A program made the position numbers and the translations under genes. Of a stretch of DNA of 64,000 nucleotides, positions 18,634-28,078 are shown one piece after another (the stretch's first letter is position 1; each line of letters begins with the position of its first letter). The stretch covers positions 25,147,501 to 25,211,500 of the forward strand of contig CP142455.1 in NCBI GenBank assembly GCA_038049695.1, given 5' to 3'. The DNA comes from Cinnamomum chago (taxonomy: Eukaryota > Streptophyta > Magnoliopsida > Laurales > Lauraceae). The notes below the pieces were generated by a model, which saw only the letters and a list, made by a program, of their open reading frames with translations, ran no database searches and was not told the origin of the DNA.

Positions 18634-19199
18634 CACACCAGTGACCATTGAGCCACCGTTTGGATTGACAACAACTTCATATGTAGTGTCTTGCTCCTTC
18701 TGACAAATAATAAGTATATATGGAATGGATCACAATCATAGATCATTTTGAATTGTTATGGCAATCGTAGATCATTTTAACTTGAGGATTTTACCAAAAA
18801 AAAAAAAACACTTTAGATGACCTGTGGGCTTAAAAGAACACTTTAACCGACTTTGCACAAGATCAGTCATTTTGCCTGAAAAAGTATTTTTTTTAGCACT
18901 TTCAACTAGCGTCCCTAGGGACCTTAGTTTTATGACGCTAAGGGTCCCTAGGGACTCTGCGGTGGACGCAAATTAGAACAAAAGAGGCATTTTCCTCGTG
19001 TTTCACTGTCAAGGCTTCCATTTGCACATACAGGTTCCTCTGCACCCTTTCTCCCTCAAACAACTATGGTCCCCTCCAACATCCGCTTCGGCTACTGCTC
19101 CTGCTCCTCGCCCTCCTACCAACTATGGTCCCCTCCCACATCGTCTTTGTCGAAGGTATGGTGCTCCCCTTTGGCCTTTTCTAACTGGATTGTTGTCTA

Positions 19200-20324
19200 G
19201 GACAAACCCTTATTGTGTCTCCATGCCTTTTGGTTTGGTTAATGTTTCCTCGTGGCAGACATCTACTCTCCACTCTAAAATCGCTTTCTAAAAGGGTCTT
19301 TGTCTTCCTTGTGTAACATTACCCCTCATAGCAAGAAAAATGCCCTAAAAATGGCGTTTGCCTTTTCTGAAAGACAATGGGCATATATAAATGCATGATC
19401 TGCTTTCTATTGTTTCCAGTTCTTAATCGCTTGCCAAAGGCAAATGCATGATCTGGTTTATATTGTTTCCGGTTTTGAATTGCTTTTAAATGCATGATTT
19501 GGTTTATATTTTTTCTGGTTCTGAATCACTTGCTAAATACAAATGCATGATTTGGTTGTCAAAAGCAAATGCTCATGTAAATTAGGGATCACTTGTGTAG
19601 CCCAAAATAGGATTTATTTTTTAGAACCTAGGCAGTAACAAAGTTGTGTATTTATAATTAAAGGTTTCAGCTATCACTAATAATGATTTTAAATGGGTTT
19701 TGAACAATAGGAAAAATGTTCTGATATCCTTTTGGCCTTGTCAGGTTTTTGAATTGACCAAAACAATCCGAATTATTAGTGACCTGGTGATCAACACATA
19801 TCAATTGTGACATGCATATAAATCATATGATCTGAAAATTTAGGAAATTGAGGGAGCCTTTGGTGTAGAAGAAAATGCCTACTATTACAACCTTGAGGGT
19901 GCATTTGTGCAAAGACGGAGCCGTGGAATTGGAAGGAAGTCTGGCGCCTTCAACGCTAATGTATTTGGTGTAGTGGATATGCCACAGTTTATTTTGTGCT
20001 TGTGAGGATCTTAAAATCTTCTCTAGGGAGGTCAAAAATGGAAATCTGGCTCTTCCAAGGCCTGTGCACAGACGCACACTTATACACTTTACCAAAGTCA
20101 CTCACCATCAACACTATAATTAGGAATCATTTATTTCTATGAGGAGAGGTGTCTCACCTGAACTATCAGAATCCTGACAGTAAAAGGTTCTTATTATTGC
20201 AACCTTCTTGTGATTTTTTTCATAATGTGTTATTATTATTACTGTTGATAACATTGTAGATATGAGATGTTGAGGAAGATTAGGTTCTAGTATGTGATGC
20301 GTGGAAGTGGAGACATGAGTTGAG
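19200..20324. other. MULE interior, no recognised gene
   Basis: Contains several spaced copies of AAATGCATGAT(T/C)TGGTTTATATT (19390-19560). Open frames on either strand show no recognised domain. Confidence 0.5.
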
Positions 20325-20475
20325 TTGTGAAGTAGAGAAATTGGACTGTGGAAAAATGTTGTAAAGTGGAGGAATTGGACTGTGATGTGGATTGTTGTGA
20401 AGTAAAGGAACTGGACTGTGATATGGAATGTGGAGTGTGGACTGTGATATGGACCATAGACTATGGACTGTGGAA
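20325..20475 (+). repeat. Degenerate tandem repeat (GGACTGTG units) inside the MULE
   Basis: Repeats of GGACTGTGGA/GGACTGTGATATGGA with GTGAAGTA(G/A)AG spacers. The open frame across it (Cys/Asp/Glu-rich) is an artefact of the repeat. Confidence 0.7.
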
Positions 20476-21416
20476 AAATGGAGACCGTAGTTTGAAATTA
20501 ATGTTTTTTATTTGGATGGCTTGTTTATTTTGAGATTTTCTCAATAATTGTTACAGCGTATAATACCTCTATCATTTTCCTTGACAGAGTTGGTGGCAAG
20601 GGAAACAAAAGACCGAAGACGATGTAGCGTTTGGCCCAAATGGATCCAGAGCTTGGGATGCAAAAAAGTGTAAGACTCTCATTTATATCCTACATGCACA
20701 CAATCATTTCACTCTTCTCGTCGGTTACACGAACGAAAATCGCTGGGAATTCTACAATAGCTCGAGCAGTGATCGACCATTATCATCAGAATATTTGTGA
20801 TAGTTTTGTGAGTATAAAACCCATCAGTTTCCTGTTATTCATGGATTGCCCTTTCGCATGCTATTATTTATTGACTTTTTTTCTTACTTAATCTGTAAAC
20901 AGAGATTGTGGTTGATGCAATGATTTGGAGATTACGGATGGGGTGAGCCATGGGTGTGGACGAATGTCACAAAGACTGATATCTCCTATCAACAGAATGG
21001 CGTGGAGATGATAGGCTTTTCAACTCCCTAACCTCCCAGCTATATAGACTTCTGTTGTATTATATGCCAAGGAAGTATGAAATTGTTTCGGTGAAATTAA
21101 TGTAATGAACTGGTATTCTTTTGGATGAAAATGATGTAAAGAACGCGTTGTTTGAATGGAATTTATTTGGATGTAATTTTTTTGTTGAAGTTAAAGTTGA
21201 TGTATGATGTAATGAACTTGTTATTTTCTGTGAAAATGATATAATGAAATTATTGTTGGGTTGAGATTTATTTGTTGAAGTTGAAGTTGAAGTTGATGTT
21301 TGATGTAATGAGGCCATAATTGTAAACCGAAAATAGTTGTTATTAATCCACCACGATTTAAAAACAGAAAAGCTTCCCAGCATCCCTAACGACTCATAAA
21401 GCAGCCCAGATTTCCT

Positions 21417-21695
21417 TCCCAGCGTCCCTAGCGACCTATATTAGTTATAGATAAGGATCGCTAGGGACCCATTGAACAACATCTGTTTCCTTCCCTGCGT
21501 CCCTTATGACTTATAGTAGTTATAGATAAGGGTCCGTAGGGACCCATTTAACAACATCTGTTTCCTTCCCTGCATCCCTTACGACCTATATTAGTTATAG
21601 ATATGGGTCGCTAGGGACCCATTGATCATCATCTATTTTCTTACCAGCATACCTAGCTACGTATATTACTTATAAATAAGGGTCCTTGGCGACCC
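21417..21695. repeat. Four tandem units with internal inverted repeats, MULE interior
   Basis: Units of about 75 bases each contain CGTCCCTAGCGACC-like and GGATCGCTAGGGACC-like halves around TTAGTTATAGATA. The same GTCCCTAGGGAC core appears in the TIRs (18905-18960, 24405-24420). Each unit can fold into a hairpin. Confidence 0.8.
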
Positions 21696-22065
21696 TTACA
21701 TATTAAAACAAAGTGCATAGCAGAAGTAGTTTTTATGAGCAGATAAGGTCCATTCCAACATAACTATATGCAGAGGGAAATCCAACTTGAATTGAATTAA
21801 TTCAAGGGAAAAAAATAAAAAGAAATGAGGCAAATTATTCATTAACAACTAAGAAGAAGCCAGATGGATCATTATATCTGGAAAAACCCAAAATATCATT
21901 GACATGTCATTAAATTTCTTCTGATTACATTGTTGTACGTATGCATAAAAAAATATTTGAAACAAAATATCATTAAATGTGATGACATTTGTTGTTAAAA
22001 TACATAAACAAAACCCATCAAATTACATGTGACATAAGACATCAAAAAACCAAAAACGGGTTCCT

Positions 22066-22521
22066 TTACTGAAGAGCGGGAGGATTACGGCAGGTCCCTT
22101 GATTGTGTCCCCTCTCTTTACAGTTGGAGCAGGTTACAACCCTTCTGACGCGGTTGCGTTCTTCCACCTGGACCCTATTCTTCTTTGGCCGACCTGGCTG
22201 CGTACTTGCTAATGGGAGAAGAACTCCTTCGCAAGAGCACGACTCCCACTGCTTTCTATCACGGGTTGCATGTAAAACCTTGTTGTAGGTCATATGATAC
22301 ATGGGCGTATGGCACCAGTGCTCATAGTAATCATATGGATCAATATTCCGAACTTTCATTGCAGCCATAGCATATGAGCATGGGATTCCCATTACTTCCC
22401 ATATGCGGCACGAGCATGATTTACACTCTAGATTGACGACATCGACGTACTCACCTGATTGCACCTGAAACTCTACCAAATGACATATACAAGTTTGTGA
22501 GAAACCACTCCCAGCTGTCAC
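22066..22521 (-). pseudogene. MULE transposase C-terminal part: SWIM zinc finger plus zinc knuckle
   Basis: The minus strand has a SWIM-type finger: VVNLECKSCSCRIWEVMGIP, with the C-x-C...C-x-H pattern altered at the last ligand (IPCSYAMAAM, where family members have PCPHA). Downstream are GRPKKNRVQ and a CCHC zinc knuckle (CSNCKERGHNQGTC), the usual C-terminus of plant MuDR-like transposases. The frame ends with a stop near 22066. Upstream on the minus strand (22522-22791) the expected DDE catalytic core is missing or unreadable, although the N-terminal part lies just beyond. This remnant could bind DNA or RNA but not catalyse transposition. Confidence 0.85.
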
Positions 22522-22791
22522 GACGCTATGATTCGGCGAAGGCGAAAGTAATTAGAAATAGCTGATTATTTGCATCATGTGTCACATCTACTAGTAGATA
22601 TCCAGGATATTTGCCACGAAGATGTGGGAAATTCTTTTATGTATGCACCGATCACCAACTCTTTTGCTTTGGTTGACCTAATTTCATTGATCAAGGCTTC
22701 TCTTTGATGTTTATTTCTTTGCCTCTTATGGTTCCTGCATAAAAAACACATGGATCAATTAACTTTGGATTTATATAAACACAATTATGGA

Positions 22792-23200
22792 TTAAAAATA
22801 AATTTCACTGCGTACGAACTTGGTTTCTGGGGTTTCTTTGGTAGCATATGTACCTCCTTCCCTTTTTACAACGAACAACAATAGATTGTTTCTTGGATAA
22901 GTCCCTGAAGCTCTGAACATTCCCTTTACATCATTGTCATCATCAATATCTATCAATGAAAAAAAAAACTTCCGTTGTGAAGAAGGTACTTTATACATAA
23001 GGCTTCCACACTTGCTTCTCAGTTTGATGCTTCGAGTGCAATGTTCACCAGCTCACTATATGTTATGGTTTTCCAGAGATGCCTCATCTTCTGTCTTCAT
23101 CCAATATATTGAGGACGTTTGAGATCAAATTGAAAATCACCATCATAATGTAATATTGTTAGGACATCAACATCCGAAGGAATACTGCAACATTAAAACA
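22792..23200 (-). pseudogene. MULE transposase N-terminal part (PB1-like region), broken
   Basis: Minus-strand pieces match the N-terminal pattern of plant MULE transposases. YYDGDFQFDLKR and a MRHLWKTITYSELV-like stretch precede KVPSSQRKFFFSLIDIDDDN and DVKGMFRASGTYPRNNLLLF. The acidic segment before MF is typical of the PB1-like N-terminus. The pieces lie in more than one frame, so this is a decayed gene start whose core does not follow. Confidence 0.65.
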
Positions 23201-25080
23201 TTTCATATTAGTTGGTTAAATCAGTAGTAACAAACATGCTTCACTAAACAGATCCAATTTGCAAGAGGAGCATTTGTTCAATACCACAAGTCCATTTGGA
23301 AGTTGACTGGTAAGTAAGGTTATTTGTTGGCATTGGTACGTACAACTATTTCTGATAACATTGATTCGATTAATCTTGCTTTTTTTACAACAACCCCAAG
23401 TGGTAATCAAAGGAAATTATTTTTATCATATATGATTCTCTACATTCTTTCTAATCATATAACTCATTTCAAATCATAACTCATTTCAAATCGTTTTCTT
23501 TATGTTATCTACCAGTTTCTCTAAAACCCAAAATTCCAATGTATGCTGACATTTCTTGTGGTCCATATTATTCTCACATCAATGTTAGTGAAAAATAAAA
23601 ACAAAAAAAAATCCTATCAAAAATGTTTGCACGTCAATCTCTATCTTGGCTTGAAACATTTAGTTCAAGTCATTAGCTGCTGGGTTTGAGATCTACAAAT
23701 ATCAATCACGTTCAAAATCTTAGATCTATCACACGGTTGTTAGCAATCTGATTTGTCATTTCCTTTGAAACGGCCTAATGATTTTTTGATCAATGGCCGT
23801 GATAAAAATACAACATTTCTTCTTCTTATTATGACAAAAGCATTTATATTGGAAAGGAAAAGGAAAACACAAACACTTTGATTTCAAATCTCTATCTGTC
23901 AATTTTTTTATGATGGGATGCTATGGGGAAGAAGACAATGAGCTGCATGCAGAAATGGCCACATGCAACTAGGAATTATGAAAAGGGTTTATCAAAAGTA
24001 GAAAATCATGTCTTAGGGCAAAGTACAAACTTCACATTTCCAGTGCTCTGCCCCAAACATAGTATCATATGCACTTTAATGTTCTCCACCAAACAAAGGC
24101 ATGTGGCTTTAATGGTCTTCAAGAGGTGGGAATGACCTATGGAGCACAACCTAGACGACAATCCAGCCCAGACGACTCAGAAAAGGCCAAAGGGGAGCAT
24201 CATACCTTCGACAAAGAGGATGTGGGAGGGGACCACAGTTGGCAGGAGGGCGAGGAGTAGGAGCAGTAGCCGAAGCGGATGTTGGAGGGGACCCAGTTGT
24301 TCGAGGGAGAAAGGACGCAGAGGAACTTGTATGTGCAAATGGAATCCTTGACAGTGAAACACGAGGAAAATGCCTCTTTTGTTCTAATTTGTGTCCACCG
24401 CAGGGTCCCAAGGGACGCTAGTTAAAAGTGCTAAAAAAAAGACACATTTTCAGGCAAAATGACTAATCAGTGCAAGGTCGGTTAAAGTGTTCTTTTAAGC
24501 CCACAGGTCATCTAAAGTGTCTTTTTTGGTAAAATCCTCTTTTAACTTAGAGTTACATTAAATGGACATAAAAACTGCATTTATAAATGGACATCTAGAA
24601 GAAGTGTATATGGAAAATTTTCAAGGTTTCGTATAAGAGAATGAAAATAAATCAGTTTATAAATTAAAGAAATCGATATATAGTCTTAAACAGGCTTCCA
24701 GACAATGGTATTTAAAATTCAATCGCATTATTACATCTTTTGATTTTATTGAAAATATTGTTGATCATTGTATACATCTTAAAGTAAGTGGGTGTCGATT
24801 TATGATTTTAGTCCTTATATGTCGATGACATTTTATTGGCTAGTAATGATCTTGGAATGATTTATGAAACTAAGGAATATCTTATGAACAATTTTGATAT
24901 CAAAGATATGGGTGAAGCGACCTTTGTAATAGGAATCGAGATTTATCGAGATAAATCTTGAGGATTACTTGGGTTATACAGGAAGCTTATATTAAAAATG
25001 TACTTAAGAGATTTTGTATGGAAAGGTGTAAGGCATAAAATGTACTTATGACAAAAGGTGACAAGTTTAGTAAAGAACAA

Positions 25081-26250
25081 GGGGATTTTACCAAAAAAAA
25101 TACTTTAGATAACCAGTGGGCCAAAAGAAACACTTTAACCGACCATGCACCAGAACAATCAGTTTGCCTGAAATGGTGTTTTTTTTTAAGAAGTTTCAAC
25201 TAGCATCCCTAGGGACCTTATTTTTATTAAGCTAAGGGTCCTTAAGGACCCTGCGGCGGACACAAATTAAAATAAAAGAGGGATTTTGCTCGTGTTTCGC
25301 TGTTAGGGCTTCACAAACAGGTTCCTCTGCACCCATAGATTTTAATATCTTACACCATCTATTTCATTTTCCGCAATGCTGCTGCAGTATTCCAAAACCG
25401 CAAACTCATAAAAAGACATTGCATGTAGGCCCCGGAGAAACCAAAAGAACGCAATCACTGTACAAGGTAGAACAGACCCCAACCAGACCACAGTAACTTC
25501 AATAACTCTGATTTATGGTTTGTCAAGGCACATTCCTGACATCTGGGCTGACCATGGAAAAAATGAGCTAGGACTGTTTACATGCAATCATATATCGATG
25601 ATCATGTGGATCTGACAGGTTGGTTGGAGTGGGATAGGGATTTTGTATTGAAGACTTTGTATTATGGGTTGTACACAAATGGCGGACCGGGTGCAGGAAT
25701 GTGTAGGTGGGTCAAATGGCCTAGTTATCATGTGATGACATGTGCAAATCAGGCGAAGAAGTTTACAGTGTGAGAGCTGATACAAGGTGCGACATGGTTC
25801 AAGTCTACTGGAGTGACTTACACTGAAGGATTCTGGTTGTGAGATTAGTCTTTTGTTTACTCTGTTTTAATGTCCTTGTGTTGCAAAAGACTGCAGTGGT
25901 CTCAAATAAGTGAAGTTGTCCTTGTATTGTGGAAGAGAGTGAACATCCTCTTATCATTCTTCTCAGAACATATCTGAGCCTTGTTCGCAGGAAGAAATGG
26001 GTGCAGAGGAACCTGTATGTGAAGCCCTAACAGCGAAACACGAGCAAAACCCTTCTTTTATTCTAATTTGTGTCCGCCACAGGGTCCTAGGGACCCTTAG
26101 CTTAATAAAAATAAGGTCCCTAGGGACGCTAGTTGAAACTCCTTAAAAAAAACACCGTTTCAAGCAAACTGATTGTTCTGGTGCACGGTCGGTTAAAGTG
26201 TTTCTTTTGGCCCACTGGTTATCTAAAGTTTTTTTTTTGGTAAAATCCCC
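25081..26250. mobile_element. Pack-MULE carrying a pectin methylesterase fragment
   Basis: TIRs of about 258 bases (25081-25338, about 25993-26250) begin GGGGATTTTACC and are clearly related to those of the MULE at 18784-24539 (ACTTTAGATAACC(A)GTGGGCC, TAGCATCCCTAGGGACC). A perfect 9-base TSD AAAGAACAA lies at 25072-25080 and 26251-26259. The interior holds only host gene sequence, the definition of a Pack-MULE. It interrupts the fossil copia element. Movement would need transposase from a MULE elsewhere. Confidence 0.93.
25365..25854 (+). pseudogene. Pectin methylesterase (pectinesterase) C-terminal fragment in the Pack-MULE
   Basis: Pectinesterases remove methyl esters from cell-wall homogalacturonan. 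The plus strand shows conserved family blocks in order. First is AAVFQN (near 25380), then an ITxQGRTDPNQTT-like block (25455-25500), then a YLGRPWK-type block (near 25530-25560). The best-preserved run is MQSYIDDHVDLTGWLEWD followed by TLYYGLYTNGGPGAG and VKWPSYHVMTCA (25582-25773). The C-terminal GATWFKSTGVTYTEGFW comes last, ending at TGA 25852-25854. A TGA in frame at 25771-25773 (after KFTV) and indels upstream break it. The catalytic Asp and most of the enzyme are absent. Family assignment is confident; the parent gene is not here. Confidence 0.93.
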
Positions 26251-28078
26251 AAAGAACAATGTCTAAGAAATGGAATTGAAAGACAATAGATGGAGAAATG
26301 TCCTTATGCAGCTACAATCGGCTATTTAGTGTTTGCACAAACATGCACTAGACTCAATATCAGTTTTGCTGTTGGCATGGTTAGTAGATATCAAAGTGAT
26401 CTAAGAATGACATATTAGGTAAGAGTTAAAAAAATGTTTGTGATGCCTTAATGGCACAAGAAATTACATGCTCTCTTACGGAAGGTCTAATCGTTTAGAA
26501 GTTATCGGTTATTCGGATACTGTCATCGCTGGTTGCCTTGATACTAGAAAGTCTACTTCGGGATACATCTCCTTGTTAGCTGGCGAGGCAGTTTCATGAA
26601 GTAATGCAAAACAAACCTTAGTGACTCTATCCACATTTGATGTTGAATACATGACATGCTTTGAAGCCACGGGTTACGCTATTTGGATTCGTGATTTTAT
26701 CTTAGGATTAAGTGTTATGTACACAATTTTTAAGCCCTTGAAGATTTATGGTGATAATGACGCTACGAAATGATTTGCTCAGAATGACAAGGTTTCCAGT
26801 AAATCAAAATTCCTGAAAGTCAAATACCTTGTACTAAAGGAAAAGGTACGAGATCGGTTAGTGTCTATCGTTGGGATCCCGACAAGACTCATGATAGCAG
26901 ATCATTTGACAAAAGCATTAGCGCCAAAGGTCTATAAAGAGCATGTTAGAAATATTGGCTAATTGAACTGCGTTATTGAAGATACGTAAAGACACTATGG
27001 TATTTATCATTGAAATATGATTTCATATTTTCTTACTTTATTGAAATTATTGTCATATGTGATTGAAGTGTATAAGGTGAGAAATTTTTTTAAAAAAATG
27101 GCATTATTGTACCCAATAAATAGGATTGCTATGAAAATTATCCTATATTACCCTTATTAAGGATTGTGTTTGTAAGTCCATGGGGATCCGAACCCTAGAG
27201 GGGGGGTGAATAGGGTGAGCTTCAACTATGACCAATTTTAACCAATTTTAACTTCTTTAAAACAAACTAGTCACATGTGATGATTAAACATACAAGATGC
27301 GGAAGCTAACAAAAGAATCACCACAAAGCAATCACCATTACACAAGTATTTATAGTGGTTCGGCCTCAATGCCTACATCCACTACCGGCTTGTGATCCAA
27401 CACCCCACCGGATTTCCACTATTTATGCTTTTCAATAGGCTAAGCAATAACCTTTACAATATGCTTTTCAAGGCTTAGCAATAACCTTTACAATGATGTT
27501 TTTCAAGGCTCAACATCAACCTATCCACTATGCTTTTATAGGCTAAGCAATAACCTCTTCAACCACAAGGTTGGTTATCTCACTAAGTTAGTGTCTATAA
27601 TACACTTGATGGAGATTCAATTAAGCTCATTACAATGCCTCTTAAATAGGCGGATATGGAAATGAAATTCTAATACACACTCACACTATGAATGCAAAGA
27701 TGAAAACATATGAAGTGTGTGTGTGTGGTCCTCAATCATTTTGAAAATGAAAGCTCATAAATGTATGCCTAAGGCTTTTGAAAGTTTAAGATCATAAAAC
27801 ATTTATGATTGAGGATATGATGCAATCACATGTTAAAAGTAACAACTTGTTAATGATATCAAAGTTACACAAGTTGTATGAAATGGATTAGCTCTAAACA
27901 TGTGATGCATAGGGATGTCAATCAAATCATCAAAGAAGCTCAAAACATAAAAATAGATTTGATTGAAGAGAGGGACAAATCATATGTAATTATAAGGACA
28001 ACTTGAAAATGATTTACCAATCAAAGTAAGGCAAGTTGTGATACTTTAAAACAATAATACACATATGATTTGTAATGA

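Follow-up and report, generated by a model that had tools for sequence, protein, structure and literature searches.

A complete Pack-MULE in Cinnamomum chago with a captured fragment of a pectinesterase pseudogene

The window examined here, a stretch of 64,000 nucleotides from the genome of Cinnamomum chago, contains at positions 25081-26250 a genuine, complete Pack-MULE of 1170 bp, with terminal inverted repeats (TIRs), a target site duplication (TSD), relatedness to other MULEs, and captured host sequence. The left TIR (25081-25336, forward strand, 256 bp, first bases GGGGATTTTACC) and the right TIR (25997-26250, reverse strand, 254 bp) were identical at 242 of 256 aligned positions (95%, 2 gap positions, E = 6e-114), and the inverted-repeat pairs I1-I3 also marked them. 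We did not date the insertion from TIR divergence, since the two TIRs of a MULE may already differ when it inserts. Flush with the TIRs lies the TSD, AAAGAACAA, the left copy at 25072-25080 matching the right copy at 26251-26259 at 9 of 9 bases; a flush duplication of 9-11 bp is expected of a Pack-MULE. The TIRs are also longer and more alike than the at least 100 bp and at least 80% similarity used as a criterion in a tomato study (PMC3310237), whose Pack-MULE features the element shows. The preliminary description had placed the start and end of the element at the same positions, and its claims of long TIRs, a perfect 9-base TSD, and a complete Pack-MULE are all borne out, with both TIRs and TSD aligning.

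The host of the insertion is a decayed copia retrotransposon (24660-26700, forward strand) with an RVT_2 domain at 24812-24961 (PF07727, E = 3.1e-10). Five related copia loci, the best besides the window itself among 40 scored, resemble the flanks at 93-94% (left) and 83-86% (right), and all five show an empty site, where flanks 24660-25080 and 26251-26700 match one uninterrupted piece of DNA, with an overlap of exactly 9 bp, the length of the TSD. The insertion is independently supported by these five empty sites. The copia host belongs to a large family, with 40 of 529 candidates scored and all of these at least 91% identical to the left flank.

Between the TIRs is a captured pectinesterase pseudogene segment (25335-25988, forward strand) that runs from the middle of exon 2 through the stop codon into the 3' region. 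It is followed at 25989-25996 (forward strand) by AGGAAGAA, a leftover of recipient MULE subterminal sequence adjoining the right TIR, which was matched by eye to sequence of the recipient family just beyond its TIR. The frame at 25567-25770 matched the Pfam family Pectinesterase (PF01095, E = 2.7e-22, positions 225-291 of 298 in the profile) as well as the solved pectinesterases 1xg2 (E = 5.6e-21) and 1gq8 (E = 8.6e-13). Coding homology, supported by PF01095 and by tblastn with the paralogue L032, and broken by the shared stops described below, was limited to about 25345-25842 (forward strand). The interior had been described as essentially all pectinesterase, and this is correct for the coding portion, while 25843-25988 represents only the 3' region of the gene.

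The captured segment was searched against the genome at the DNA level; 17 of 17 candidates were scored, and they comprised 11 element copies, one TIR-free locus, and six distant matches of 69-82% over 56-289 bp. The TIR-free locus (L012, C7:12632587-12633238) was 95.2% identical to the captured piece, gapless over 652 bp, and retains, beyond the limits of the captured piece, pectinesterase exon 1 together with the upstream portion of exon 2. No TIR match was found in 3652 bp of this locus (E = 1e-4), as expected of a parental copy. Since it is TIR-free, matches at 95%, and has kept additional pectinesterase coding sequence, it is best regarded, on sequence comparison, as the donor or the closest surviving relative of the donor in this assembly; the true donor may have been lost, with this locus closely related to it. 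The match to this locus spans 25335-25986 by BLAST, or extends to 25988 with the last 2 bp inferred from the state of the sister copies, and does not run past the TIRs. A search for a pectinesterase match, the parent gene, and sister copies had been proposed; the pectinesterase match, this donor-like locus, and ten sisters were found. Elsewhere, eleven pectinesterase-like matches, two of them with a stop, occur in about 256 kb at C11:55301928-55557942, which suggests a tandem array of the gene family.

The recipient family was recognized from its TIRs. Those of the Pack-MULE match L013-L018 and L020 at 94-96% (right) and 92-95% (left), and seven of the loci L013-L020 are 94.7-97.6% identical to one another over about 1.7 kb starting with the Pack-MULE TIR, L019 matching the other recipient-family loci across the first 0.36 kb only. 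Six elements of about 0.9-1.2 kb (L051-L056) also carry these TIRs. L051, L053, L054, and L055 have interior sequence in common and look like internal deletion derivatives. A piece of the L056 interior was present at at least 39 other places (40 of 67 candidates scored), several of them near recipient-family TIRs, and the interior of L052 differs from it. Positions 480-950 of L052 (C5:2318529-2318999) form an unrelated interior of 0.5 kb between the same TIRs as those of the Pack-MULE; 11 further places carry it at close to its full length (87-97%, 13 of 13 candidates scored), and is possibly another captured sequence.

Homology of the TIRs to those of transposase-bearing MULEs in the same genome, a further property of Pack-MULEs, was seen at L069, of which one end was identified. 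Its TIR matches at 93%, and MULE, DBD_Tnp_Mut, and SWIM domains lie on two frames (PF10551, E = 7.6e-21; PF03108; PF04434). No second end turned up in 8.6 kb of sequence beyond L069, and a search for a complete MURA element with a TIR match of at least 93% returned none. L057 and L058 were considered as a complete, closely matching transposase element and rejected, having only about 2 kb in common. L068 is complete and more distant, with a TIR match of 85-86%, about 16.8 kb between TIR ends, a 715-aa MURA frame, and, as its printed ends show, the 9-bp TSD AAATAAATA. It also specifies, beside MURA, a Ulp1-type protease domain (Peptidase_C48, PF02902, E = 2.7e-7); no Ulp1 sequence was found in what was searched of the Pack-MULE itself. 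The span from position 1357 of L068 to position 463 of L079 corresponds to C2:26699356-26716162. The 715-aa open frame was present in 9 of 150 scored matches, L068 included, at 84-86% identity.

Another MULE is present in the window at 18784-24539 (5756 bp), with TIRs that are 83% identical and a TSD, TTTTAACTT, at 18775-18783 and 24540-24548. It carries a transposase remnant, including a SWIM domain at 22066-22551 on the reverse strand (E = 2.2e-5), and matches MURA-bearing elements at the DNA level. The preliminary description had taken it for the parental family and had expected the Pack-MULE TIRs to align with the region 18784-19190. They do so at 18786-19047, with 81-82% identity (81% in the alignment of that region), and at 24317-24537 with 71%. 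The relationship therefore stands, but the element is diverged, and a closer subfamily exists elsewhere in the genome; it belongs to the same wider family as the recipient, and is unlikely to have been the immediate parent. Positions 20509-21000 match the Ulp1-side region of L068 by DNA, and a domain search of frame 20585-20800 did not find Peptidase_C48.

The captured gene was most likely already a pseudogene when it was taken up, as suggested by damage common to the donor-like locus and the element copies. The donor and every one of the 11 copies have in-frame stops at 25537, 25549, and 25771, and the donor locus has three more stops beyond the captured part. A frame change around 25418-25504, inside the coding part, is evident from pectinesterase matches in two frames, and must be common to the donor and the window copy because their alignment is gapless over 652 bp. 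These shared stops, the further donor stops, and the shared frame change point to capture after pseudogenization as the likeliest order. The stop at 25549 replaces the Arg of the conserved motif GRPW, which reads G-stop-PW in the donor and window copy, and the DFIFG motif reads YFIFR in the donor and window copy, with Asp changed to Tyr, in a stretch that is deleted in the sisters. We take this Arg and Asp to be catalytic residues, presumably equivalent to R225 and D157 of carrot pectinesterase. An open frame with both catalytic residues, as expected of an active pectinesterase, was found in neither the donor nor the window copy. The earlier label of a pectin methylesterase C-terminus is thus apt as a statement of sequence homology, but not of a working domain. 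Three other stops were not counted as shared damage: that at 25564 arose independently, since the donor has TAG there, the window has TGA, and the ten sisters lack it, while those at 25468 and 25840 are present in the donor and all 11 copies, the former lying where the frame is shifted and the latter looking like the natural end of the gene. Of 85 changes in the captured region at which a copy departs from the majority state, 52 were C>T and G>A, a preponderance that would be expected of methylated silent DNA.

Eleven copies of the Pack-MULE were found in the assembly, the window copy and ten sisters, which indicates that the captured unit has transposed. Eight of the 11 are end-intact, and all eight carry a 9-bp TSD that is perfect and flush with the TIRs, no two being the same; several of these are composed of A/T only, and hence are weak when taken singly. 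L002, L010, and L011 are truncated, and in the TSD test L010 failed for this reason, L002 and L011 not being included. At L005 the best scripted register was a shifted 10-bp repeat, and the flush 9 bp are also identical in the printed flanks. All ten sisters lack element positions 241-349, a stretch of 109 bp that the window copy alone retains (25321-25429, forward strand), and which comprises 16 bp at the inner edge of the left TIR and 93 bp of the captured gene. The alignment shows a 1-bp microhomology at the deletion.

The most likely interpretation of these sequences is that the window copy represents the pre-deletion form, and that amplification was of the deleted form. Presence of the 109 bp is the likely ancestral state because the part of the left TIR that they include is mirrored in the right TIR and also occurs in the recipient family. 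In the right TIR, the seven end-intact sisters share three positions that are derived relative to eight recipient-family TIRs (7 or 8 of 8), where the window copy has the parental base, and one of the three shows the same pattern in the left TIR. The three truncated copies were excluded from this test, L010 having one of two adjacent changes. Trees grouped the ten sisters apart from the window copy with weak support (60 and 56), and no site in the captured part unites all sisters against the window and donor, except one column at the edge of the deletion. The order from long to short was accordingly drawn from the deletion and a few TIR positions. Mean divergence was 2.5% between sisters and 3.4% between sisters and window copy, and the copies differ from the donor by 3.2-5.2%.

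The weak resolution of the trees leaves some room for the opposite order, with the short form as the ancestor and the 109 bp restored to the window copy through gene conversion by the donor. This is highly improbable, given that the captured stretch found only in the window is no closer to the donor than is the rest (7 of 93 versus 24 of 559 differences), that the 109 bp include 16 bp of TIR which the donor locus does not have and which are mirrored in the right TIR, and that the window retains parental TIR bases lost in the seven tested sisters. With the window copy read as the pre-deletion form, the contrast of ten surviving copies with one undeleted copy raises the idea that loss of the 109 bp at the left junction increased transposition success. 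This is doubtful, although, if true, the window copy and its ten sisters would naturally set a low-activity ancestor beside its successful derivative, the payload having been non-coding from the start.

A role for the captured sequence itself was also considered. Of the 11 copies, 8 keep the 68-codon frame at 25567-25770 open (two have TAA and one is frameshifted), as they might if the Pack-MULE encoded a functional or selected pectinesterase-derived peptide. No purifying selection was seen on this frame, in which the changes numbered only 16 and were spread 5:6:5 over codon positions 1, 2, and 3, and in which 3 of the 16 (0.19) were synonymous where a fraction of 0.24 would be expected in the absence of selection; given also the stop at the GRPW Arg in the donor and every copy, and the loss of the DFIFG Asp by substitution (donor and window) or deletion (sisters), such a peptide is scarcely credible. 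A regulatory role has precedent, in that maize Helitrons, Pack-MULEs, and Sireviruses are described as siRNA reservoirs for donor genes in a review (PMC13317346), and the element might by analogy be a source of small RNAs silencing live pectinesterase genes. At the 14 stop-free pectinesterase loci among those fetched (L032-L050), however, the longest exact match to the captured piece was 10-17 nt, below siRNA length, which argues against direct targeting of these genes; the three best stop-free paralogues are about 70% identical to it, and a longer exact match (74 nt) exists only to the dead donor locus. Silencing of this kind is very unlikely.

The junctions provide some indication of how capture may have occurred. 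On the left, TIR and captured segment overlap by 2 bp (AT), and on the right the overlap is 0 bp by the sister state; the right junction is considered blunt because a base change private to the window hides two more donor bases, which the sister state reveals. An overlap of TTGTTC at the right junction, obtained from BLAST, was rejected, as it is donor sequence. A survey of animal Pack-TIR elements recorded 1-36 bp of microhomology (median 2) at one breakpoint or both in 67.6%, and read it as template switching during gap filling (PMC8277862). The junctions of the Pack-MULE are compatible with gap filling without showing it, and overlaps of 0-2 bp may be due to chance.

We infer that the interior of a long-TIR MULE, from a family with MURA-bearing members, was swapped for a 654-bp piece of an unlinked pectinesterase pseudogene (C7:12632587-12633238), probably when a gap left by excision or breakage was filled by DNA synthesis that switched templates. 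The product, a non-autonomous Pack-MULE, would have been mobilized in trans by MURA of related elements, generating 9-bp target duplications, and one lineage would then have lost 109 bp at the left junction, where there is a 1-bp microhomology, and given rise to at least ten copies, leaving the window copy as the sole undeleted one found in this assembly. For the full account, comprising capture of a dead gene by a MULE, trans mobilization, the 109-bp loss, and amplification of the short form, we estimate a probability of about 0.93. One genome here displays the undeleted copy and the deleted ones, together with the donor-like locus and a recipient family some of whose members bear transposase. 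Because the payload was, on this account, dead at capture, amplification cannot be credited to a coding function, and the family would provide a clean neutral case.

The Pack-MULE is real and well explained, and represents an ordinary example of a known process. Pack-MULEs were reportedly treated by Jiang et al. in 2004, a work cited in PMC3310237 and PMC8903248. In a limited look at the literature, no described Pack-MULE with a pectinesterase or pectin methylesterase was met, which is not evidence of absence; PMC9055812 and PMC2869330 mention pectinesterase or invertase inhibitors, in different contexts. Captured fragments are usually non-functional pseudogenes, according to a review (PMC13317346). 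Capture from a gene that was already dead was not discussed in the parts consulted of PMC8277862, PMC3310237, PMC8903248, and PMC13317346, in a similarly limited look.

The Pack-MULEs of rice, Arabidopsis, maize, and tomato (PMC3310237, PMC8903248) resemble the present element in their long TIRs, 9-bp TSDs, and several copies with different TSDs, and in carrying a host gene fragment from an unlinked, TIR-free locus; they differ in that the fragment here came from a gene that was most likely already a pseudogene. Ulp1-carrying MULEs, known from Arabidopsis (Kaonashi), grapevine, melon, and rice in the same review (PMC13317346), are paralleled by L068, the relative of the recipient family with Ulp1 (Peptidase_C48) beside MURA, but whereas Arabidopsis Kaonashi are non-TIR MULEs, L068 and its relatives have long TIRs. 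Tomato PM-ZIBP (PMC3310237) has one likely oldest copy of original structure, 13 copies of a changed derivative, and an identified parental gene. The pattern in C. chago is closely similar, with one copy of original structure, many structurally changed copies, and an identified donor-like locus, except that the tomato derivative has tandem TIRs, while here the change was a 109-bp loss at the left junction (10 copies versus 1).
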